Shown here in pieces: positions 3,670-19,965 of a DNA stretch of 28,616 nt (position 1 is its first letter; each line of letters opens with the position of its first letter). A program made the position numbers and the translations under genes. Under the pieces are notes generated by a model. It was not told where the DNA came from. It saw only the letters and a list, made by a program, of their open reading frames with translations, and made no database searches. The stretch covers positions 1-28,616 of IMG/VR virus record IMGVR_UViG_3300012928_000031; one strand, written 5' to 3'. Source of the DNA: a virus.

Positions 3670-4608
3670 ATGATTATCAAAGAAGATAGATTAAAACAAA
3701 TTATTCGTCAAGAAATTGAACTTCACATTATTGAGCAAATTATTGACGAAGAGTTTGAAGCATTTTTATTAGAATCTGATGCTTATGATCGATATAAGGC
3801 ACAAGATCGTAAAGATTTAAAATCCAAAGTTGCCAGAAGTCTTGCTGGGTTGACCGCTGCAACGGGTGCGGGTTTTACCATGCAGCAGAAAGTAGATGAT
3901 CTCGGACAAGCAAAAAAAGCGTCAGCCCAAACCGCAGCGCAAAAAAATTACGAAGCCAGTTCAACAATTGAGAATGCGGCTAAAGAATTACAGAAACGAG
4001 CTGCTAATTTAAAGTCTTGGATGTGGACCTCAACCGACACACAAACTTTACCATTTCCAACAAACCCGGAAAATTATAGTGAAGCCGTGTTACCCCCAGA
4101 GTGGTCTGTTATGGCTCAAGTTGCTATTGATATGAAAGCACAAAAGCCTAAATACCCAGTAGATAAAAATTATTTACAAGTAGCAAACAATCCTGATTCA
4201 CTATCGAGTGCGTACAAAAACATAAAAGGCAACCCACCAAAAGGCCCTCATAAAAATTTCTTTAAAACATTTTCACCTGATACATACCCATTTTCTGATG
4301 CTAGCGAGTTAGGAATTAATAGGGCAATGTTTCCCGCGGGAACTGGCTTACCATCAGCTATGCTTGACTTGGATGGTGATGGTGGTCCAGATTTACAAAA
4401 TATAGTTTACATTCCCTTTGATGAATTACCGGATGATTATGTAATGCCATTAAGCGGATTGACCAAAAGCGATTATTATAAAAAATATTATTATGGCGAT
4501 GGTATGAGTTTAGAAATGTTTAAAAATTTAAAAGGTGCCAAACCGTCTGTGAAAGAAAGTAAGATAACTTGGCAGAATTACAAAAACCGAAAGAAAAAGC
4601 TTGCGTAG
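3670..4608 (+). CDS. Hypothetical 312-aa protein with leader-like N-terminus and DxDGDGGPD motif
   Basis: The protein is not recognised. Its N-terminus (IIKEDRLKQIIRQEIE) is a divergent form of the amphipathic leader found on several small proteins of this window. An Ala/Lys/Gln-rich helical stretch follows (about residues 55-120), then a Pro/Tyr/Asn-rich region. Near residue 235 it has LDLDGDGGPDLQN, which fits a DxDxDG calcium-binding loop of the kind seen in EF-hand/dockerin and some extracellular proteins. The C-terminus is Lys/Tyr-rich. The start lies one base after the primase frame, and no strong ribosome-binding site is visible. A virion or prohead-internal role is possible because of the leader, but this is inference. 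Confidence 0.6.
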   Translation: MIIKEDRLKQIIRQEIELHIIEQIIDEEFEAFLLESDAYDRYKAQDRKDLKSKVARSLAGLTAATGAGFTMQQKVDDLGQAKKASAQTAAQKNYEASSTIENAAKELQKRAANLKSWMWTSTDTQTLPFPTNPENYSEAVLPPEWSVMAQVAIDMKAQKPKYPVDKNYLQVANNPDSLSSAYKNIKGNPPKGPHKNFFKTFSPDTYPFSDASELGINRAMFPAGTGLPSAMLDLDGDGGPDLQNIVYIPFDELPDDYVMPLSGLTKSDYYKKYYYGDGMSLEMFKNLKGAKPSVKESKITWQNYKNRKKKLA

Positions 4609-4774: not shown

Positions 4775-7700
4775 GTGAGCATTAAAATAGCACACGTCTC
4801 TGATATTCATGTGCGAAAACTTAAATATCACAAAGAATATCGAGCCGTGTTTGAGCAGCTTTATGAAAAGCTGAGAGAAGAAAAGCCTGATATCATTGTT
4901 AATACGGGTGATACATTTCATACAAAGCTTGATTTGAGCCCTGAAGCAATCAGGATGATGAGCGAGCTATTTGTTGGTCTTGCTGATATTGCACCTTACC
5001 ACATGATTCTTGGCAATCATGACATGAACTTAAAGAATAGTGGTCGGCTTGATGCCATATCACCAATTGTTGATTATTTGGAACATCCAAATATTCACTT
5101 TCATAAATATGCATCTGTGGTGGAAGTAGCTCCCGGTATCGACTTGCATGTCTTGTCTATTGTTGATCCCGAGAACTGGCAGAAACAATTACCCGATGAC
5201 CGTGTTAATATTGCACTCTATCACGGTTCAGTAGTAGGGTCAGTGACTGATAGTGGCTGGATGATGACACACGGTGACATATCACTCGAAGAGCTTGAAA
5301 AGTATGATTATGCAATGCTGGGTGATATTCACAAGACAGACCAAAAAGTTGATAATGATGGTCGAGCACGGTACCCGGGCTCACTTGTACAACAGAATCA
5401 TGGTGAGTCAAATGATAAGGGTTATCTTATTTGGGATATTCAAGATAAGAATACATGGGCAACAAGGCATGTCTCACTTACTAACCCGAAGCCGTTTATT
5501 ACTATCGAACTTACTCGCAAAGGACGAATGCCAAAGAATATTTCTATTCCGCTTGGTGCTCGTCTTCGTCTCGTTAGTAATAATAATTTACCGCTTGACT
5601 CTATGAAAAGAGCAGTTGATGTAGCTAAACATAGATTCAAACCAGAAACAATATCGTTTTTGAATCGTGCATCAGGTGAGCGAGGTTCTGTTGAAGCATT
5701 AACTGATGGTTTGCAAACTGAAAATCTAAGAGATATAAAAGTACAAGAAGAATTGATAGATGAATATTTAGTTGACTATGAAGTGCAAGAAAAGACACTT
5801 GAGAAAGTTTACGAACTAAATAAGAAGTATAACAAAATTGTTGAGGACAATGAGGATGTATCGCGGAATATTAACTGGAAACTTGTTGACTTTGAGTTTG
5901 ACAATCTGTTTAATTACGGGGATGGTAATAATGTTAGCTTTGAAGAGCTAAGTGGTATTATTGGTATCTTTGGTAAAAACTTTTCTGGTAAAAGCAGTAT
6001 CATTGATGGTATCTTGTGGACACTGTTTAATACGACATCTAAGAATGAGCGAAAAAACTTAAATGTAATTAACCAGAACAAAGAAGATTGTCGCGGAAAG
6101 GTAACAATACAGATTAATGATTTGGTCTATACAGTCGAACGAAAAGCTAAGAAGTACATCAAAAGACTGAAAGGCGAAGAGACACTAGAGGCTAAGACGG
6201 AATTAAACTTTGAAGTTTATGATCCAGTTATGGATGAAACCACATCTTTAAATGGGCTCACAAGAACACTCACCGATGCTAACATACGAAAACAGTTTGG
6301 TACACTTGATGACTTTGCAGTTTCATCTTTATCGTCTCAGCACGGTGCTTTGGCATTTATCGATGAAGGCTCGACCCGTCGTAAGGAAATCATCGCGAAG
6401 TTTCTCGATCTTGAATTGTTTGATCGTAAGTTTAAGTTAGCCAAGGAAGACTCAGTTGACCTCAAGGGTGCACTTAAGAGACTTGAGACTAAGAATTATG
6501 ATGATGAATTAGATTCTGTAAATGCATCGCTTGTTGAAGCGAGACAACAGATGAGCGAACACAAGTCAATTTGCACTGCTCTAAAAGAAGCAGTCGTGGA
6601 ATTAACTGATGTCAAAAATGAGATTGAGTCCAAAATTGATTCTATACCCGCCGAAATTATCGATATTTCAGCAGTCAATAAAGAAATCAGATTAAAAGAA
6701 AATCAAATAACAAAGCACATTCTTGAGAATGATGAATTTGCTGATACTTTAAAAACAAAACAAGGTGTGTATAAAAAGATTGTAAGTTTTCTCGATGAGT
6801 TTGATTTACAGAAATTTGAAACTCAACGGCAACAAATTAATCAGTACAGAGAACAACTTAAGACACAAGAAGATAATCTTGATAAACTACTAGAAGAACA
6901 CAACTATATTCTGAAAAAAGAAAGCTTGTTGCATGATCATGAGTATGACCCCAACTGTGAATATTGTTCTAATAATGAGTTTGTCAAAGAAGCACAAGCA
7001 GCCGTTAGCAGAAAAGCTGATATAGAGGCTCAACAAGCTGACACATTACAAACGATTAATATAATCACGGAAGAAATCAAGAGTCTAAATCCAACAGATG
7101 TTGAAACACAATTTGAACGGTATAATAAGATAGAGTCTAACAAGCACACAGTATCATCAGAGATTGCTGATTTGAATCTTGAGATTGAGAGAAACAAAAA
7201 TTCTGTTTTATTTTTAGAAGATAAACTAAAAGAACTGTGTGCAAAACGAGATGAATACGAGGAAAACAAAGAAGCAATTGAAAATCTGGAAGCTTTAGTA
7301 ACTCAGCTTAACAAGTGTCATTATAAGATTGAGCAAACACAAAAGAAGATTGATACCTGTGATGCTGCCACACTTGAGCTTGTAAAGTCTGTTGGTTCAT
7401 ACGAACAAAAGATTGAAACCATCAAAGAACAAAAGCAGGAGTATCAAGACCTTCAGACCGAGTTTGCTGCATACCACTTGTTTATGATTTGTATGCACCC
7501 TAATGGTATTGCTTACGACATTATTAAGAAGAAGATACCAGTGATCAACGAAGAGATTGCGAAGGTGCTAGCTAATATCGTTGACTTTGAAGTATTCTTT
7601 GAAGCTGCAGGTAATAAGTTTGATATCAATATCAAGCATCCAAAGTATGAAGAGCGACCAATAGAGATGGCATCTGGTGCGGAGAAATCACTGTCTGCAA

Positions 7701-7942
7701 TGGCTATCCGTCTAGCATTGTTAGGAGTTTCATCACTACCAAAGTCCGACTTGTTCATTCTTGATGAACCGGGTACAGCACTGGACGAAGACAATATGTC
7801 GGGTTTTATTCAGATTTTGGAACTAATTAAGGTATATTTCAAGAATGTTTTGTTGATCTCGCACCTTGATTCGCTCAAAGATTGTGTCGATATGCAAATC
7901 GTAATTGATAAAAAATCAGGATACGCAAAGGTTAACCAATAA
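4775..7942 (+). CDS. Fused SbcD-SbcC (Mre11-Rad50; T4 gp47-gp46-like) recombination nuclease
   Basis: This 1055-residue protein joins both halves of the Mre11-Rad50 complex, which resects DNA ends for recombination-dependent replication. Residues 1 to about 230 are a calcineurin-like phosphoesterase: HVSDIH (D10, H12), NTGD (D46), GNHD (N81, H82, D83), LYHGS (H150) and LGDIH (183-186). A linker leads to an ABC ATPase with Walker A GKNFSGKSS (400-408), long coiled coils (about 560-900), a zinc hook CEYC (C728, C731), the signature ASGAEKSLSAM (from 966) and Walker B LFILDEPG (D997, E998), followed by LLISHLD. GTG 4775 is chosen because AGGAG sits 5 bases upstream. No stop or frameshift separates the parts; in T4 and bacteria they are separate genes. 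The stop overlaps the next ATG. Confidence 0.93.
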   Translation: MSIKIAHVSDIHVRKLKYHKEYRAVFEQLYEKLREEKPDIIVNTGDTFHTKLDLSPEAIRMMSELFVGLADIAPYHMILGNHDMNLKNSGRLDAISPIVDYLEHPNIHFHKYASVVEVAPGIDLHVLSIVDPENWQKQLPDDRVNIALYHGSVVGSVTDSGWMMTHGDISLEELEKYDYAMLGDIHKTDQKVDNDGRARYPGSLVQQNHGESNDKGYLIWDIQDKNTWATRHVSLTNPKPFITIELTRKGRMPKNISIPLGARLRLVSNNNLPLDSMKRAVDVAKHRFKPETISFLNRASGERGSVEALTDGLQTENLRDIKVQEELIDEYLVDYEVQEKTLEKVYELNKKYNKIVEDNEDVSRNINWKLVDFEFDNLFNYGDGNNVSFEELSGIIGIFGKNFSGKSSIIDGILWTLFNTTSKNERKNLNVINQNKEDCRGKVTIQINDLVYTVERKAKKYIKRLKGEETLEAKTELNFEVYDPVMDETTSLNGLTRTLTDANIRKQFGTLDDFAVSSLSSQHGALAFIDEGSTRRKEIIAKFLDLELFDRKFKLAKEDSVDLKGALKRLETKNYDDELDSVNASLVEARQQMSEHKSICTALKEAVVELTDVKNEIESKIDSIPAEIIDISAVNKEIRLKENQITKHILENDEFADTLKTKQGVYKKIVSFLDEFDLQKFETQRQQINQYREQLKTQEDNLDKLLEEHNYILKKESLLHDHEYDPNCEYCSNNEFVKEAQAAVSRKADIEAQQADTLQTINIITEEIKSLNPTDVETQFERYNKIESNKHTVSSEIADLNLEIERNKNSVLFLEDKLKELCAKRDEYEENKEAIENLEALVTQLNKCHYKIEQTQKKIDTCDAATLELVKSVGSYEQKIETIKEQKQEYQDLQTEFAAYHLFMICMHPNGIAYDIIKKKIPVINEEIAKVLANIVDFEVFFEAAGNKFDINIKHPKYEERPIEMASGAEKSLSAMAIRLALLGVSSLPKSDLFILDEPGTALDEDNMSGFIQILELIKVYFKNVLLISHLDSLKDCVDMQIVIDKKSGYAKVNQ

Positions 7943-8355
7943 TGAAAATTACAAAATCACAACTTAAACAAATCATTAAAGAAGAGCTTGAAGCTGTTTT
8001 GGAAAACAAAAATAGCTTTCCAGTTGATCAGAGAGAATTGGAAAAAGAAGCGAACAAACTTGAACTTGCCAGAGGCACCTCTGTTGCAAGAGGTGAACAC
8101 AGCCCTACTGATAGAACAATTGACGCACTGATGAACATAGTTGGTGATAATTATATGGTAGTCGATTATAGAAGCGATGAGGGTATGAAACAGTTTACAG
8201 ACATCGAGCAAGGGAATATAGATTTACCAGATGGAACAAAGGGTGCCATAATTATCATACCCAATAGAACATTTGCTACACAAGATGGAAATTTAATTGT
8301 TCATTATAAGACAATCCGTAGTAATAAATATGGTAGAGCAGTATTACCAAGGTAA
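7942..8355 (+). CDS. Leader-family small protein 1
   Basis: This 137-aa protein starts at ATG 7942, overlapping the TAA of the recombination nuclease (TAATG). It begins with the clearest form of the shared leader, MKITKSQLKQIIKEELEAVL, predicted as an amphipathic helix. The body is unrelated to the other leader proteins: a charged linker, then an alpha/beta segment including TIDALMNIVGDNYMVVDY and KGAIIIIPNRTFATQDGNLIV. No known domain is recognised. A 16-base stretch inside the leader (7973-7988) is identical to one in the next gene (8394-8409), so the leaders are related at the DNA level. The leader could be a capsid-targeting or partner-binding tag; this is inference. Confidence 0.65.
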   Translation: MKITKSQLKQIIKEELEAVLENKNSFPVDQRELEKEANKLELARGTSVARGEHSPTDRTIDALMNIVGDNYMVVDYRSDEGMKQFTDIEQGNIDLPDGTKGAIIIIPNRTFATQDGNLIVHYKTIRSNKYGRAVLPR

Positions 8356-8362
8356 AACAATA

Positions 8363-8716
8363 ATGAAGATATCCAAATCCCAACTTAAGCAAGTCATTAA
8401 AGAAGAGCTAGAATCAGTTCTAACTGAAAGATTATCTCAGAGAGAATTTCGACAAGAAGTATTTGCTTTAGCAAAAGCATTCGATAATCCTGAATATGTA
8501 AAAAAAGTTTTAAACCCTTTAAAAGACTTATATTTTAAATTGGATATAGGTAACGAAAAAATAAAAAGAAGATATGCCGAAGATGTCATTCGTGCTGCCT
8601 TCTCTCAATACTCAGATACAGAACAACAAGACTTGCTATCACAGCTTACGACTGATCAACCATACACTAGATATGGTGATAAGATGGCTGCACAAATTAA
8701 GGATACATATAGATAA
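8363..8716 (+). CDS. Leader-family small protein 2
   Basis: ATG 8363 is chosen because the product then starts MKISKSQLKQVIKEELESVL, matching the leader of the gene just upstream; an in-frame upstream start would only add residues that overlap that gene. The 117-aa product continues with a charged, mainly helical body (REFRQEVFALAKAFDNPEYV, KRRYAEDVIRAAFSQYSD) that shares no similarity with its neighbour beyond the leader. The two genes look like a leader duplication followed by fusion to, or divergence of, different bodies. The TAA overlaps the ATG of the tubulin-like gene. Function is unknown. Confidence 0.65.
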   Translation: MKISKSQLKQVIKEELESVLTERLSQREFRQEVFALAKAFDNPEYVKKVLNPLKDLYFKLDIGNEKIKRRYAEDVIRAAFSQYSDTEQQDLLSQLTTDQPYTRYGDKMAAQIKDTYR

Positions 8717-9852
8717 TGTCTAACAATGATAACAACGAATTTGATTTTCTGCCTCCCGCAGAGCCACCACCCTCCTTCAATCAGGAGAAAGATCACTATC
8801 ACGAAGAGGTAGAAGCAGAAGACTTTGGAATGGTAGAAGATTTCGGTCTACAGATGGAATACTCTGATGAAGATTTACTACCTGAGAACACAGCCCCATC
8901 ATCTATTAATGTGGGGTTTGTTGGTGTTGGTGGCGGTGGCAACAAAATGGCTAATGCTTTTATTGAGCTTGGCTTTAACAAAACCTTGCTTGTTAACACA
9001 ACAGGCAAAGACATTCCTAAGAATGTTGAAGAGGATCATGTTGTCCTCATTCCCGATGCCGATGGTATTGGTAAAAATGTAGAATATGGAAAAGAGGTAT
9101 TAACACAAAATGGTGCTATTGTTGAAGATGCTCTCCGCATCAAGCTTGGAAAAGTCGATTGGCTATTCGTCCTCGCCGGAGGAGGCGGTGGGACCGGCAG
9201 CAGTGTTACTGCTCTTCATCCTGTATTCGAGCGCTATCTTCGTTCTGTTCAAGCTTCTGGACAAGTAGTATATGTTACATCTTGGCCCACAGCACAAGAA
9301 AACCTTAATCCTACAATCGCTAGAAATGCTCTCACTCTTGCGAATGATGTGTCAAAACACCCACACATCATCCTAGACAACGAACGAGCAACAAGATTAC
9401 TTCGTGGTAGAATTGGTATGCTGGGTATGTATCCGGTTGCCAACACACAATTTGCAAAGTCATTAGCCCAAGTTTTGAAACTCTCCAATGAGGACTCACC
9501 GATCCAATCTTTTGATAGTAAGGATTTAGAAACTTGTCTGGGCAATGACGGTCGTGCCTTCATGGGCTCAACTATGATAAAAGATCCTAATACTGGAAAG
9601 CTTGGATCGGTGATCCTCCACAACTGCATGAACCGCTCTGCATGTCCTCCACCCAAGGGTAAGGCGGCAGCAGGCTCGTTAGTATTAGTTGTGTCAGAAG
9701 AGATGGTGGCTGACCCTAAAGTTAGCAAAAATATTGAGTCGGCAATCGCTTATGTCGGCGGTCGATGCGAGACACTTTTTTCTGGTGTTTATGTCAGAAA
9801 GAATGTGCCCGGTTTGATTGCGATACTAAGTATGAATGGATTAGCGACATGA
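8716..9852 (+). CDS. Tubulin/FtsZ-family GTPase (phage tubulin-like protein)
   Basis: This 378-aa protein has an acidic N-terminal extension (about residues 1-63) and then a tubulin/FtsZ GTPase fold. GFVGVGGGGNKMANAF (68-82) matches the first nucleotide loop of FtsZ. LAGGGGGTGSS (153-163) is the tubulin signature G-box. SFDSKDLETCLGNDGRAFMG (from 265) aligns with the FtsZ T7-loop region, and D267 and D270 fill the two catalytic acid positions used for GTP hydrolysis across subunits. It may therefore polymerise. It ends ILSMNGLAT, with no recognisable FtsZ C-terminal tail. It is flanked by leader-family genes, and its last 26 bases are duplicated downstream. Closeness to FtsZ rather than the PhuZ of jumbo phages is my reading of the motifs. 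A role in division interference, virion positioning or assembly is open. Confidence 0.85.
   Translation: MSNNDNNEFDFLPPAEPPPSFNQEKDHYHEEVEAEDFGMVEDFGLQMEYSDEDLLPENTAPSSINVGFVGVGGGGNKMANAFIELGFNKTLLVNTTGKDIPKNVEEDHVVLIPDADGIGKNVEYGKEVLTQNGAIVEDALRIKLGKVDWLFVLAGGGGGTGSSVTALHPVFERYLRSVQASGQVVYVTSWPTAQENLNPTIARNALTLANDVSKHPHIILDNERATRLLRGRIGMLGMYPVANTQFAKSLAQVLKLSNEDSPIQSFDSKDLETCLGNDGRAFMGSTMIKDPNTGKLGSVILHNCMNRSACPPPKGKAAAGSLVLVVSEEMVADPKVSKNIESAIAYVGGRCETLFSGVYVRKNVPGLIAILSMNGLAT
9825..9850 (+). repeat. 26-bp direct repeat, copy 1 (end of tubulin-like gene)
   Basis: The 26 bases ending at 9850 are identical to 10361-10386. This copy encodes the last residues of the tubulin-like protein (LSMNGLAT) and runs into the ATG (9849-9851) of the following leader-family gene. 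The copies diverge at the next base (g here, a in copy 2). Confidence 0.95.
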
Positions 9853-10361
9853 AAATAACAAAACAACAACTTAAAGAAATTATTTCAGAAGAGATCGAAA
9901 AGACATTAAACGAAAATGAATCAGATCATCTCAATTTAAATGAAAACGATGAGCTTAAAGGTAAACTATCAAATGCGTTCAAGATCAGAAGTGATCCCGA
10001 ATATCTGTTAAATATCATGTCAACTAGATACCCCATTGTAATCGACAAAATTAAAAAAAGAGGGTTAGGAGACAGGTATGTAGCAGCAGCTAAAGCAGCA
10101 GACAAGCAGCATGGGGCACTTTTAGACCCCAATCAATATTTGAGACAGCCTGACGAATTGGACGCCTACTTGGGACTATCACAAAAAGCACCAGCAGCCG
10201 CACCATCAAGCGCTGGCGGTAAGCAAGCGGTAGTATCAAATGTTCAAAAAATGTATGATGATTTGCGGACTTACGATACAAAGTTTCAAAAAGATCCCGA
10301 GATCAGAAAAAAATATGAAGCTGCTTTGGGTGCAATTAACTCCCTGTTAAGGAGTTTGTAA
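9849..10361 (+). CDS. Leader-family small protein 3, inside repeat-flanked cassette
   Basis: ATG 9849 overlaps the TGA of the tubulin-like gene; in-frame starts further upstream lie inside that gene and are rejected. The 170-aa product begins MKITKQQLKEIISEEIEKTL, a member of the shared leader family. It continues with an Asn/Glu-rich linker, a helical segment, an Ala/Pro/Ser/Gly-rich hinge (KAPAAAPSSAGGK) and a C-terminal helical region (MYDDLRTYDTKFQKDPEIR). No known domain is recognised. The gene lies almost exactly between two copies of a 26-bp direct repeat, so it looks like a discrete insertion into the junction between the tubulin-like gene and the gene at 10398. Function is unknown. 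Confidence 0.65.
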   Translation: MKITKQQLKEIISEEIEKTLNENESDHLNLNENDELKGKLSNAFKIRSDPEYLLNIMSTRYPIVIDKIKKRGLGDRYVAAAKAADKQHGALLDPNQYLRQPDELDAYLGLSQKAPAAAPSSAGGKQAVVSNVQKMYDDLRTYDTKFQKDPEIRKKYEAALGAINSLLRSL

Positions 10362-13598: not shown

Positions 13599-14045
13599 AT
13601 GCAGATTACTAAAAAGCAACTTCGTAATATTATTCTAGAAGAATACATGAAAGAAGAAAATATTACCGAGTATAGTGAAGAGGCTGAAGAGCTTATTAGG
13701 CAAATGATTGGTGACGATGAGTATAGGCGTCGTAGAGAGCTTGAGATGCCCAGAGATCGAAATGACGGAAGCACTGCCCCAATGTATAAAGGATCCGATG
13801 CTGTCGAGGAACAGATTGCAGCCTTGGTTCAAGGTATGGAGCCAGATGATGTGGCTGAACTTTTTCAGTCCGTCTTTTCAAGATTGCCCGGTGTAGAGAT
13901 GCAGGATGATGAACCCGATCCACCTTCTTTGTATGGCGATCCTAGAGACGATGGAAGGTCGCCGATTACTTTAGGACCAGTAAGAGAAGATTTTGATTTA
14001 GCTGCTCTGCAAGAAATGATTCGCACTATGATCAGGGATGTATGA
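13599..14045 (+). CDS. Leader-family protein 5, acidic, directly upstream of terminase
   Basis: ATG 13599 is chosen because AAGGAG (13586-13591) lies upstream and the product then begins MQITKKQLRNIILEEYMKEE, a member of the shared leader family. The earlier in-frame start would run through the previous gene. The 148-aa product is strongly acidic with a Glu/Asp/Pro/Arg-rich middle (DEYRRRRELEMPRDRND, DDEPDPPSLYGDPRDDG) and short helices (VEEQIAALVQGMEPDDVAEL and a C-terminal LQEMIRTMIRDV). It overlaps the terminase ATG by four bases. The position fits a small terminase subunit, but the sequence gives no support beyond position; a head-associated acidic protein is equally possible. Confidence 0.6.
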   Translation: MQITKKQLRNIILEEYMKEENITEYSEEAEELIRQMIGDDEYRRRRELEMPRDRNDGSTAPMYKGSDAVEEQIAALVQGMEPDDVAELFQSVFSRLPGVEMQDDEPDPPSLYGDPRDDGRSPITLGPVREDFDLAALQEMIRTMIRDV

Positions 14046-15625
14046 GTTTTGAACTTACCAAAAAACAAAAGTTTCAAGAAATATTAAAGTGTGGTAAAGA
14101 CCCTGCATACTTCTTGAAAAATTATGCCCGTATATCACATCCGATGCACGGGCTAATCCTTTTTGATACGTATGATTTTCAAGATACTTTATTAAATGAT
14201 TTCAACGATTATAGATTTAATATTATTTTGAAAGCAAGACAATTAGGTATATCTACCATTACAGCCGGATATATCTCTTGGCTAATGCTTTTCCATAAAG
14301 ATAAATCAATCCTTGTCATGGCAACTAAGTTTGCTACGGCTGGAAACCTCGTAAAAAAAGTCAAGAGCATTATGAAAAACTTACCAGAGTGGATTCGCAT
14401 AGCTACCATCTCTGTAGACAACCGAACATCATTTGAATTGTCTAATGGATCATCTATTAAGGCTGCTTCAACTTCTGGAGATGCTGGTCGTTCTGAGGCA
14501 CTGTCATTGCTTGTTCTTGATGAGGCTGCACACATTGAAGGTCTTGAAGAGTTGTGGACTGGTCTGTACCCCACGCTGTCTACTGGTGGTCGTTGCATCG
14601 CACTGTCAACTCCTAATGGTGTTGGTAATTGGTTTCATAAAAACTGTGTCGATGCAGAAAGTGGAGCGAACAACTTTAATCTTACAACACTACCATGGGA
14701 TGTTCATCCTGATAGAGATGAAGAGTGGTACAAAAAAGAAACCAGAAATATGTCCAAGCGACAGATTGCTCAAGAGCTTGAATGTAATTTCAACACTTCT
14801 GGCGAGACTGTAATTGATCCTGATTGTATGGAATGGCTTTTATCAAATGTGTGCGAACCAAAGTACAGAACTGGTTTTGATAGAAACTTTTGGATTTGGG
14901 AAGAATATGATCCCACATGTAATTATCTTATGGTTGCTGATGTAGCTCGCGGCGATGGTGCTGATTACTCAACATTTCATATGATTAAGCTAGAGACCTT
15001 ACAAGTCATCGGAGAATACCAAGGTAAGCCAACATTGGATATGTATGCAAATATATTAAATCAAGTCGGTAGAGAATTTGGAAATGCCATGTTGGTTGTA
15101 GAAAACAATAATGTTGGATTTTCGGTTTTAGATAAACTCATTGAAGCAGGTTACCCCAATTTGTATCACTCTATCAAATCGACCCATGAATACATTGAAC
15201 AATATCAGGCAGAGTATAGAAACTCGGCGGTACCCGGTTTTACTACATCATCAAAGACTAGACCCCTTATCGTTGCGAAATTAGAAGAGTTTATCAGAAA
15301 TAAACTAATTACCGTGTATTCTTCTCGGACAATAAATGAGATGAAGACGTTTATTTGGAGGAATGGCAGACCGCAAGCTATGAAAGGTTACCATGATGAT
15401 TTAATCATGGCACTTGCAATTGCATGCTGGGTAAGAGATACAGCAATTCAAAATAGCGCTAGAGATTTAAATTATCAGAAAGCATTTGCAAACGCTATCA
15501 TCACGTCTAGAACAACCATGAACACAAAAATTAAAGGTCAAATTGGATACAAAGAACAAGAATCATTTGATAAAATAGATCAAGCAAAAAAAACTTACGA
15601 AGAGTTTAATTGGATAATAAAGTGA
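14042..15625 (+). CDS. terL: Terminase large subunit (packaging ATPase-nuclease)
   Basis: This 527-aa motor pumps DNA into the prohead and cuts concatemers. The ATPase domain has a variant Walker A in LKARQLGIST (63-72), Walker B LLVLDEA (156-162) and the coupling motif ALSTPNG (187-193). The C-terminal RNase H-fold nuclease shows its acidic residues in LMVADVARG (D300), LVVENNN (E354) and YHDDLIMALA (D452/D453). Length and motif spacing match T4 gp17-type terminases, though it is somewhat shorter than gp17 (610 aa). No intein or split is seen. ATG 14042 overlaps the upstream stop, and the portal gene follows after 8 bases, the usual packaging-to-portal order. Confidence 0.95.
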   Translation: MSFELTKKQKFQEILKCGKDPAYFLKNYARISHPMHGLILFDTYDFQDTLLNDFNDYRFNIILKARQLGISTITAGYISWLMLFHKDKSILVMATKFATAGNLVKKVKSIMKNLPEWIRIATISVDNRTSFELSNGSSIKAASTSGDAGRSEALSLLVLDEAAHIEGLEELWTGLYPTLSTGGRCIALSTPNGVGNWFHKNCVDAESGANNFNLTTLPWDVHPDRDEEWYKKETRNMSKRQIAQELECNFNTSGETVIDPDCMEWLLSNVCEPKYRTGFDRNFWIWEEYDPTCNYLMVADVARGDGADYSTFHMIKLETLQVIGEYQGKPTLDMYANILNQVGREFGNAMLVVENNNVGFSVLDKLIEAGYPNLYHSIKSTHEYIEQYQAEYRNSAVPGFTTSSKTRPLIVAKLEEFIRNKLITVYSSRTINEMKTFIWRNGRPQAMKGYHDDLIMALAIACWVRDTAIQNSARDLNYQKAFANAIITSRTTMNTKIKGQIGYKEQESFDKIDQAKKTYEEFNWIIK

Positions 15626-15633
15626 GAAACTAA

Positions 15634-17667
15634 ATGGCAGACAATTCAAACAAAAACAACCCTAGAAATAATCAGTCACAACTGTTTAAATCGCTAACCA
15701 GATTATTTTCTGGACCAATTATTAATTATCGTTCACAATCTGGGCGTAGAATACGTAGACAACATCTTGATAAGTTTTCTTCAAGATTTAAAACTGCATC
15801 AGGTCAACAATTTAAAAAAACACATTATAGCCCATTAGAACAAATTGGTGCTAACGCAATTGCTAATCAAAGACGTTCTGAGCGCTACGTCGATTTTGAT
15901 CAAATGGAATATACTCCTGAAATAGCATCGACTCTGGATATATATGCAGATGAGATGACAACATATTCTGATTTGAGACCTATGCTCAATATTAATTGCC
16001 CTAACGAAGAGTTAAGAGCAGTATTAACAATCTTATATGAGAACATCCTTAATGTAGAATACAACTTATTTGGTTGGTCGAGAACGATGTGTAAGTACGG
16101 CGACTTCGTATTATATTTGGACATTGATGAAAAGTACAGCGTGCAGTCTGCTATATCATTACCGCCTCAAGAGGTAGAAAGGTTAGAGGGTCAAGATGCG
16201 ACAAATCCAAATTATGTGCAGTATCAGTGGAACTCAGCCGGCATGACTTTTGAAAATTGGCAAGTTGCACACTTCAGAGTGCTTGGTAATGATAAGTATG
16301 CGCCTTACGGAACCTCGATACTGGAGCCCGCACGTAGAATCTGGCGTCAGCTTACATTGATGGAAGATGCTATGATGGCTTATCGTGTTGTGCGTTCATC
16401 TGAACGTCGCGTATTTAAGATTGATGTTGGTGCTGTTCCACCCAATGAAGTTGAACAATATATGGAAAAAGTTGTTACTCAACTAAAGAGAAATTCAGTT
16501 GTTGATCCAACCACTGGACGTGTTGATTTAAGATACAACCCAATGAGTATTGAGGAAGATTATTACATTCCGGTACGCCAAGGTTCACAAACCGAGATAC
16601 AATCATTAGCCGGAGCACAAAATATTACAGCTATTGATGATGTCAAGTATCTTCGCGACAAGCTGTTCTCAGCACTCAAGATACCTCAATCGTATCTCAC
16701 GATGGGTGAGGGAGCTACCGAAGATAAAACAACATTAGCACAAAAAGATATTCGTTTTGCTAGAACTATCCAAAGATTACAACGAGTTGTTATTTCTGAG
16801 CTTGAGAAGATAGGAATTATTCATCTTTATACACTTGGATTCCGCGGAGATGATTTGCTGTCATTTAACTTATCACTAAATAACCCTTCTAAGATTGCAG
16901 AAATACAAGAGATAGAACATTGGAAGGCAAAGTTTGATATCGCTGCATCAGCGACTGAAGGTTATTTTTCTCGTCGTTGGGTATCTGAAAATATTTTTGG
17001 TATTAATCACGAAGAATTTGTGCGTAATCAACGGGAAATGTACTATGACCGTAAACACGATGCATCCCTACAGCAAGTTGCTGAAGGCGCTGCAGCCGCC
17101 GCAGGTGGTGGTCTTGGTGGTGGTCTTGGTGGTGGCTTAGGCGGTGGTGATGCTCTTGGTGGTGGTTTGGACACCCCAACACCGCCAGCCGCCGGCGGTC
17201 CAGCAGAGATACCTGCTACCGATGTAACAGATACCACTCCACCGCCACCAGACGCCACCGGCGGAGACGCACCGGCCGGGGGAGATTCACCGTTATTAGC
17301 AGTTCCACCCGGTTCAAGAAGCTCAAAAAGTCTTAATCCAAATGATTCAAATGTTAGCACATACCAGAAGAGTAGTTATAGGAGAAAAGACGGAGTGAAT
17401 GATCGAAGACCAGCAGGCAAGCGAGCCCAATCATACGCCTCCATTGCTACACCAGAAACTAATACGCCAAGAAAGAATAATCTTGGTTACCCAGAGTTAA
17501 GATCTCTGAGCAGAGGAGTTTTTACCGAAGAGACATCTATATATTCTGATAGAGAATTGGATGAGGAACAAAAAATCCTTGAGATGAATAACTCAGTAAA
17601 ATCACTAATTGATGTTTTAGACAAAAAAGACAAACTACTGACGGAGCAAAAAGATGAAACACAATAA
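15634..17667 (+). CDS. Portal protein (T4 gp20-like) with extended low-complexity C-terminus
   Basis: The 677-aa portal forms the dodecameric DNA channel at one head vertex. Typical core features include SERYVDFDQMEYTPEIASTL, DIYADEMTTYSDLRPML, MCKYGDFVLYLDIDEK, the helical segment around LEPARRIWRQLTLMEDAMM and IPQSYLTMGEGATEDKTTLA, which are hallmark portal segments of T4-like phages. The core ends near residue 485. It is followed by a Gly-rich repeat (about 491-512), a Pro/Gly/Ala-rich region and a basic/Ser-rich tail ending in a Lys/Glu helix. T4 gp20 is 524 aa, so about 190 residues form an unusual tail. The 3' end overlaps the next gene by 14 bases. Confidence 0.93.
   Translation: MADNSNKNNPRNNQSQLFKSLTRLFSGPIINYRSQSGRRIRRQHLDKFSSRFKTASGQQFKKTHYSPLEQIGANAIANQRRSERYVDFDQMEYTPEIASTLDIYADEMTTYSDLRPMLNINCPNEELRAVLTILYENILNVEYNLFGWSRTMCKYGDFVLYLDIDEKYSVQSAISLPPQEVERLEGQDATNPNYVQYQWNSAGMTFENWQVAHFRVLGNDKYAPYGTSILEPARRIWRQLTLMEDAMMAYRVVRSSERRVFKIDVGAVPPNEVEQYMEKVVTQLKRNSVVDPTTGRVDLRYNPMSIEEDYYIPVRQGSQTEIQSLAGAQNITAIDDVKYLRDKLFSALKIPQSYLTMGEGATEDKTTLAQKDIRFARTIQRLQRVVISELEKIGIIHLYTLGFRGDDLLSFNLSLNNPSKIAEIQEIEHWKAKFDIAASATEGYFSRRWVSENIFGINHEEFVRNQREMYYDRKHDASLQQVAEGAAAAAGGGLGGGLGGGLGGGDALGGGLDTPTPPAAGGPAEIPATDVTDTTPPPPDATGGDAPAGGDSPLLAVPPGSRSSKSLNPNDSNVSTYQKSSYRRKDGVNDRRPAGKRAQSYASIATPETNTPRKNNLGYPELRSLSRGVFTEETSIYSDRELDEEQKILEMNNSVKSLIDVLDKKDKLLTEQKDETQ
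17104..17169 (+). repeat. Imperfect 12-bp tandem repeat encoding GGGL units in portal
   Basis: Units close to GGTGGTGGTCTT are repeated about five times (17104, 17116, 17128, a longer 18-bp variant at 17140, and 17158). They encode GGGLGGGLGGGLGGGDALGG. This is a flexible linker between the portal core and its tail and is prone to copy-number change by slippage. Confidence 0.85.
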
Positions 17668-19359: not shown

Positions 19360-19965
19360 ATGGGTAAGAAATTATTAAGAGAATTTTATGAACTTTGCGA
19401 AGGCGGAGTTTGTAAAGATTTATTAACTGAAGAAGAAAAGAAATTTGTTGCAGAAGGTGGTCTTATTCTTTCTGGTATTATGCAGATGTGTGAAACTCTT
19501 AATGGAAACAAGCGAGTATACACCCGTCCAGTTCTCGAAAGAGAAGTAAAGAAGTATCAAAAACTCGTTAAGCAAAATCGCGCGCTTGGAGAGCTTGATC
19601 ACCCACAAGAAGTAGAAGTTTCGCTTGAAAGAGTGTCCCATAAAGTTAATGAAATTTGGATGGATGGTAACAAGGTAATGGGCAAAATTCAAGTTCTTGA
19701 TACCCCTGCTGGTCAAACACTCCGTGCTCTTGTGCAGGGTGGTTGTGCTATTGGTATTTCATCACGTGGAACCGGCTCTGTTATGGAACAGGGCGGTAAG
19801 TCTATCGTCCAAGAAGATTTTGAGTTGGTTTGCTTTGATGTGGTTTCAGAACCATCTACACCCGGTGCATTTATGATGCGAGAAGCAAAAGATTTTGGCT
19901 TGAAAGAAAGCAAAAGTGATAAAATTAACAGCCTAATAGACGAGGTATTAAAAGATGAAGTATGA
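19360..19965 (+). CDS. Prohead protease (T4 gp21-like serine protease)
   Basis: This 201-aa protease would cleave the scaffold and the N-terminal parts of head proteins during prohead maturation. The catalytic histidine is in LGELDHPQ (H81) and the serine in AIGISSRGTGS (S134/S135), both in the context typical of the gp21/herpesvirus-assemblin-like U9/S-type proteases. D160 in CFDVVSEPSTPGAFM completes the conserved end of the domain. The N-terminal 35 residues (REFYELCEGGVCKDLL) probably act as a propeptide. The ATG follows an AAGGGA site. It sits after the portal and before the fibre genes, while the probable scaffold begins at 28221. Together with the leader-family proteins it suggests a processing system. 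Confidence 0.9.
   Translation: MGKKLLREFYELCEGGVCKDLLTEEEKKFVAEGGLILSGIMQMCETLNGNKRVYTRPVLEREVKKYQKLVKQNRALGELDHPQEVEVSLERVSHKVNEIWMDGNKVMGKIQVLDTPAGQTLRALVQGGCAIGISSRGTGSVMEQGGKSIVQEDFELVCFDVVSEPSTPGAFMMREAKDFGLKESKSDKINSLIDEVLKDEV

Follow-up and report, generated by a model that had tools for sequence, protein, structure and literature searches.

Phage-encoded tubulins have been described as a hallmark of the nucleus-forming Chimalliviridae (PMC9123017, PMC11835377). Among marine jumbo phages, tubulin was unique to the phiKZ-like cluster (PMC9123017), and a 2025 tree placed phage tubulin in Chimalliviridae and in "a handful" of scattered large phages (PMC11835377). A survey of Far-T4 phages mentions neither tubulin nor FtsZ (PMC4360716). 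An FtsZ-like protein has already been annotated in Bacillus phage G, and some proteins of uncultured phages have been labeled FtsZ automatically. Other described relatives are TubZ/RepX, a GTPase filament family of mobile elements known from type III plasmid partition and from Clostridium phage c-st; CetZ, which comprises archaeal cell-shape proteins; and FtsZ itself. The working tails of FtsZ, TubZ, and PhuZ, the last being the tubulin of Chimalliviridae, are all at the C terminus, and that of TubZ binds TubR. When subunits of tubulin or FtsZ stack, each supplies its T7 loop to complete the GTPase site of the adjacent one.

Here, we describe a phage tubulin-like GTPase, designated TUB, encoded on the IMG/VR record of a T4-like marine virus. 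The window, by which we mean the whole stretch of DNA analyzed, is 28,616 bases long, and the TUB gene occupies positions 8716 to 9852 on the plus strand. The open reading frame starts with ATG, overlaps its upstream neighbor (TAATG) and its downstream neighbor (ATGA), and encodes a complete protein of 378 amino acids. A sequence-only reading had proposed an FtsZ/tubulin-like GTPase at this position, and the gene is real: the protein scores 33.9 bits (E = 4.9e-8) against the Pfam Tubulin family PF00091, just above the gathering score of 33, matches FtsZ chains in the PDB at E = 7e-11, and has relatives in 171 viral stretches. PF00091 also matches relatives of TUB, some of them under the cut-off. 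TUB is thus confirmed as a complete GTPase of the tubulin/FtsZ superfamily. Within the literature searched, the scope of which left out subscription journals and preprints, we found no description of the TUB family. Phage tubulin as such is known; new here are this tubulin family, the phage group that carries it, the lack of a nucleus, the N-terminal peptide, and the position at head genes.

An AlphaFold2 model of TUB built on a 58-sequence viral alignment reached a pLDDT of 89.9 and a pTM of 0.83, with nearly all core residues above 90; an earlier model from 16 near-identical sequences had a pLDDT of only 45. The two-domain tubulin fold is present in the model, which gives structural Z scores of 27 to 32 to CetZ, TubZ, and FtsZ and aligns with both domains of CetZ2 (Z 32.3), TubZ (Z 32.1), and FtsZ (Z 29.2). 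CetZ2 from Haloferax volcanii (4b45) is the top structural match, at 2.5 A over 292 residues, and the sequence match to a second CetZ, 3zid from Methanosaeta thermophila, likewise spans both domains; CetZ proteins are about 20% identical to TUB. The fold and the family membership are well supported.

The active site is intact. The T1 nucleotide-binding loop GVGGGGN (residues 70 to 76; positions 8923 to 8943, plus strand) has G70, G72, G73, and G75 invariant in 47 family rows, as are G155 to S162 of the T4 tubulin signature GGGGGTGSS (residues 155 to 163; 9178 to 9204, plus strand), which the sequence-only reading had picked out. Relative to the superfamily signature GGGTG[ST]G, GGGTGS is invariant in the TUB family and the final G, as found in FtsZ, is replaced by S or A at residue 163. 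In the T6 loop DNER (residues 221 to 224; 9376 to 9387, plus strand), N222 is invariant in all 58 aligned proteins. So are both aspartates of the D-x-x-D that had been noted in the T7 region, now placed as the catalytic D267 and D270 of the synergy loop SFDSKDLE (residues 265 to 272; 9508 to 9531, plus strand), remote members included. Residues of T1, T3, T4, T5, T6, and T7 are retained throughout the alignment, none of the nucleotide-pocket residues is lost, and pocket and T7 aspartates stay invariant over the 58 proteins at identities down to 22 to 25%. Because this loop completes the GTPase site of a neighboring subunit in tubulins and FtsZ, its strict conservation argues for head-to-tail filaments, and we infer that TUB forms them.

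In layout, TUB differs from PhuZ in carrying its tail at the N terminus and not at the C terminus. Residues 1 to 63 (8716 to 8904, plus strand) form an extension that was rightly read from the letters as acidic, with 18 acidic residues, one basic residue, and a net charge of -17. It is mostly disordered: residues 1 to 50 have a pLDDT of 43 to 55, and the exception is a predicted helix at residues 34 to 43. This helix is a conserved peptide, AEDFGMVEDF (8815 to 8844, plus strand), that follows a family motif [DE]F[DG][FM][VIL]..[YF], with DFGMVEDF in the window's clade and mostly DFDFVEAY in the sister clade. It was found in 156 of 159 family proteins, 33 to 34 residues ahead of the T1 loop, where shuffled tails gave an expectation of 0, and the other three proteins are from contigs that start inside it. 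Tail length varies from 28 to 173 residues with the terminal block fixed, and about 24 residues, with a common LPEN-x-A-x-S, lead from the peptide to the core. The pattern occurs in TUB only across four whole genomes of about 190 kb, and the peptide has no resemblance to the tails of host FtsZ. It looks like a docking peptide. At the other end, the protein stops with the final core strand (residues 367 to 376 of 378), and there is no C-terminal tail, linker, or conserved peptide.

The family profile scored phage G gp138 at 52 bits, plasmid RepX at 35, and Listeria FtsZ at 34, followed by other TubZ-like, CetZ, and FtsZ proteins; by group, FtsZ gave 16 to 34 bits and PhuZ at most 5. Pairwise BLASTP gave gp138 73 bits, CetZ 3zid 55, plasmid TubZ-like protein 50, and FtsZ at most 30. 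The suggestion that TUB is closer to FtsZ than to PhuZ thus holds for the profile score, but gp138, 3zid, and plasmid TubZ-like protein outscore FtsZ in BLASTP, and TUB is a clade of its own in a tree with FtsZ, PhuZ, TubZ-like proteins, and one CetZ, rather than grouping with a nonpolymerizing family. That clade has support of 100/100 and a stem of 1.6 and lies outside both FtsZ (100/99) and PhuZ (100/100); a first tree likewise set TUB apart. FtsZ plus 3zid is only a tentative sister, at 84/81, and every alternative placement examined survives the approximately unbiased (AU) test, with TUB as sister of FtsZ alone borderline (P = 0.068) and TUB as sister of PhuZ at P = 0.305. The sole CetZ included, 3zid, joins FtsZ at 97/95 as a row assembled from printed alignments that covers only residues 26 to 323. 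Against the TIGR00065 FtsZ equivalog, TUB scores 47 bits, where the cut-off is 295.2, and against the PhuZ family phrog_4733 it scores 13 bits (E = 0.077), where PhuZ of phiKZ scores 395 bits. PhuZ chains were not among the top 50 structural matches (VIA-align 2), which carries no weight against PhuZ. As judged from these sequence comparisons, TUB founds a separate clade that is not FtsZ, PhuZ, or TubZ. A captured host FtsZ was rejected on score, tree, and T7 motif.

Among the closest described systems are gp138 of Bacillus phage G ("putative FtsZ-like cell division protein") and phrog_17961. No other named protein matches TUB better in pairwise comparison than gp138, which shares the T3, T4, DNE, and S-x-F-D-x-x-D-L T7 motifs with TUB; however, its core identity to TUB is just about 24%, and it lacks the N-terminal extension, has a C-terminal tail, and groups in the tree with plasmid TubZ-like proteins. 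TubZ/RepX has the same fold (Z 29 to 32), but TUB has no nearby TubR or tubC and, in the model, lacks the long C-terminal helix and tail. FtsZ shares the fold, the GTP pocket, and the catalytic D-x-x-D. The FtsZ T7 motif is NxDFADV, and its N is S or T in TUB, which also lacks a C-terminal peptide and a dcw cluster. PhuZ is, like TUB, a phage-encoded tubulin of large lytic myoviruses, whereas TUB comes without chimallin and from a different phage group.

The family is large. By a peptide-pattern scan, at least 171 viral stretches encode a relative of TUB, the best 80 of these 171 being 88 to 99% identical, and 170 stretches came from a scan that used the most divergent member. An alignment led by gp138 uncovered a sister clade at 54 to 57% identity and remote relatives at 24 to 31%, and a scan led by the sister clade found at least 310 stretches, the best 80 of which include records of 201 to 293 kb; all of these stretch counts are lower bounds because only stretches matching the exact peptide patterns could be counted. 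Large records carrying TUB span 187 to 293 kb, with exactly one tubulin gene in each of those searched. The gene context had been described as non-jumbo, which fits the window's own clade, with contigs of 187 to 196 kb under the 200-kb line, but not the family as a whole, which extends into the 201- to 293-kb records. Plasmids searched with TUB gave no match, and cellular genomes searched with two N-terminal peptides gave no relative. Judged by terminase, the closest isolates are Flavobacterium phage immuto and Microcystis phage Mel-JY01; neither has a tubulin, which shows that not every phage of the wider group carries the gene.

The window carries T4-like head genes, all on the plus strand: a terminase large subunit (14042 to 15625; phrog_2, E = 4e-51), a portal protein (15634 to 17667; phrog_213, E = 1e-69), and a head maturation protease (19360 to 19965; phrog_207, E = 1e-56). 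Capsid genes resembling gp23 are present in its long relatives. The constant upstream neighbor of TUB in the window's clade is an SbcD-SbcC fusion of 1,055 amino acids with a nuclease domain and an SMC-type ATPase (4775 to 7942, plus strand). A gene order is conserved across 80 loci of this clade: primase and the SbcD/SbcC fusion come first, then TUB, then a variable set of small leader genes, and last the terminase and portal genes. TUB is present at each of the 18 terminase loci for which more than 6.5 kb of upstream sequence is available. In the sister clade, by tallies in which neighbors were recognized from their resemblance to a small set of reference genes, a major capsid protein gene precedes and a head-tail adaptor gene follows TUB in 23 of 80 genes, and one of the two is in view in 9 more. 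The head protease gene directly follows TUB in 8 of the 80 (synteny of L550 to L575), with a portal-side gene, o18438, before TUB in 7 of these 8. A remote protein of about 30% identity (L427) is encoded one gene ahead of a portal-like gene and a protease gene. The tubulin gene is therefore located within the head module or next to it in several lineages. In a third group, which includes several of the largest genomes, TUB is near PhoH, GroEL-like, or nucleotide-metabolism genes and not near head genes, so the link to head genes is strong but not universal. A family search of the genes flanking TUB found no TubR-like, FtsA-like, or DNA-binding family partner, and no iterons of the kind that make up a tubC centromere were found beside TUB; a partition locus was rejected on this ground. 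The window also encodes a UV-damage endonuclease (UvsE/UVDE; 1565 to 2524; NCBIfam, 204 bits, over the cut-off), and a similar uvsE is the nearest recognized gene upstream of tubulin in two sister-clade records, L531 and L562.

TUB is the most conserved of the 70 proteins of at least 150 amino acids common to four genomes of 187 to 196 kb, with a mean identity of 92.8%, compared with 82.7% for the next protein and a median of 59%. Its nonsynonymous divergence is the lowest of the 70 in all three genome comparisons. Against two of the genomes its 4-fold-site divergence is also the lowest (0.32 and 0.40; median, 0.67 to 0.69), which indicates that part of the similarity stems from recent exchange. 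In the third comparison, divergence at 4-fold sites is on a par with that of other genes (0.65, compared with 0.69), and protein divergence is still the lowest, at 0.092, with the next at 0.153. Constraint and exchange therefore both act. High-expression codon bias as a cause of the low synonymous divergence is unsupported: in three genomes, the TUB gene shows less codon bias than is usual (ENC rank 73 to 77 of 82 to 86), making exchange between relatives the likelier cause. Weak codon bias together with low synonymous divergence in the tubulin gene of the window and of L010, L016, and L049 can be read as signs of exchange among related phages. Across clades, TUB, at 60 to 62% identity, is no more conserved than terminase, at 62 to 63%.

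That no nuclear-shell genes are visible held up well beyond the window. The shell family phrog_4795, searched with one profile, is absent from the window and from 12 related metagenomic records of 185 to 293 kb, which are not established as complete, and was found in phiKZ as the positive control; likewise, the phiKZ shell, PhuZ, and RNA polymerase subunit had no phmmer match in four genomes. A hidden PhuZ/nucleus system was rejected for want of the shell gene. As to the host, one relative's contig, which breaks off inside TUB and encodes a terminase of 85% identity, has been binned with a Flavobacteriaceae metagenome-assembled genome that has an ordinary FtsZ, although a bin is not proof of host, and the nearest isolate by terminase, at 48%, is Flavobacterium phage immuto. 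These weak indications point to Flavobacteriaceae as a probable host group.

Going beyond the computed fold, pocket, catalytic residues, conserved peptide, gene positions, and shell-gene absence, we can suggest how TUB might polymerize, with what partner and cargo, and when. In the explanation that we consider best, with a probability of about 45%, TUB would form a filament late in infection, driven by GTP, that docks a partner of phage origin through its N-terminal peptide so as to organize head assembly, packaging, or capsid traffic. The protein would be expressed from a tightly packed operon, with head-assembly and packaging genes in the operon or close to it, and its subunits would stack head to tail, the T7 loop (D267 and D270) of each prompting the adjacent subunit to hydrolyze its bound GTP. 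Inside the infected cell, the filament would act in the cytoplasm and without any nuclear shell, with the acidic N-terminal peptide exposed about 24 residues off the core and available for docking. Because of the gene position, the most likely docking partner would be a head or packaging component. Late in infection, the filament would then organize or move proheads and packaging sites, a job like the capsid transport of PhuZ, of which TUB is a likely analogue, done by a different tubulin and with T4-like heads. A wider and more tentative proposal, which we would put forward as possible rather than probable, is that widespread T4-like marine phages build a cytoskeleton of their own without a nucleus, a tubulin filament docking proheads or packaging complexes through the N-terminal peptide and so organizing virion assembly in the open cytoplasm. 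If true, tubulin-based virion logistics would count as a general strategy of phages instead of a by-product of having a nucleus. The TUB family shows a separate tubulin shared across a large and common group of marine phages that has no shell gene, and it would uncouple the question of what phage tubulin is for from the phage nucleus. The conserved peptide makes a search for the partner directly testable.

Other explanations deserve to be weighed against a filament that serves heads. TUB could instead position DNA in the manner of TubZ, moving or centering replicating phage DNA by something like type III partition or PhuZ centering, with no tie to capsids. The structure is as near to TubZ as to CetZ2, the remote relatives include gp138, plasmid proteins, and proteins of 104- to 137-kb viral records related to plasmid TubZ, and some large genomes have TUB away from head genes. 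We nevertheless regard DNA positioning as unlikely, given that neither a TubR-like gene nor an iteron centromere adjoins TUB, that the protein has no C-terminal tail, and that the gene has head-gene neighbors in several lineages within a lytic, T4-like gene content. A nonpolymerizing GTPase, or a structural or scaffolding component packaged in or assembling with the prohead, would account for the two sister lineages in which TUB is embedded among capsid, adaptor, portal, and protease genes, and T4-like heads do mature by proteolysis. It would not account for a T7 loop that is required only for stacked subunits and yet is invariant, both aspartates included, over 58 proteins, nor does the TUB N terminus have the repeated MKIxKxQLK leader of its neighbors; we think such a role improbable.

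The sequence-only reading had also raised interference with host division, for which we found no support. Phages are known to use a block of FtsZ as a strategy, TUB is kin to FtsZ at the superfamily level, and a probable host group, Flavobacteriaceae, has a normal FtsZ, so that a tubulin decoy might cap or copolymerize with host FtsZ, stop division, and enlarge the cell. Identity to Bacteroidota FtsZ is, however, at most about 25 to 30% over 80 to 113 residues; TUB retains its own full catalytic set, has no C-terminal peptide of the FtsA/ZipA type, and bears an N-terminal peptide unlike the FtsZ tails of the host; and its sequence and position are kept in many phages, with head-gene synteny. 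A decoy thus seems to us no likelier than the prohead component. Least credible by far, and scarcely to be expected, is a PhuZ-type spindle of a phage nucleus that was missed through divergence of the shell protein. TUB is, to be sure, a tubulin in large phages, but phrog_4795 was found in phiKZ and in none of the 12 large records, the three phiKZ proteins had no counterpart in the four genomes, and PhuZ is a separate 100/100 clade, though the AU test does not reject a sister relation. Set beside these rivals, the late filament that docks a head or packaging partner is the reading we prefer.

Several minor observations were made alongside. Several small, unrelated proteins of the window, encoded at 7942 to 8355, 8366 to 8716, and 9852 to 10361, begin with a leader MKI(S/T)KxQLKx(I/V)I(K/S)EE(L/I), and variants of it occur at positions 3670, 11256, 13596, and 20636; three proteins match one strict pattern. 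By analogy with the internal proteins of T4, the leader may be capsid targeting. Another family of tubulin-like proteins, remote from TUB at 24 to 31% identity, is encoded on viral contigs of 12 to 75 kb (L432, L433, L435, L436, L437, L450, and L469); it falls in phrog_17961, listed as "unknown function," keeps the T7 aspartates invariant, and has little or no N-terminal extension. Finally, four IMG/VR records of 104 to 137 kb (L421, L422, L425, and L426) encode proteins closely related to a TubZ-like protein of a Bacillus pumilus plasmid, which suggests that they are plasmid-like prophages partitioning by TubZ.
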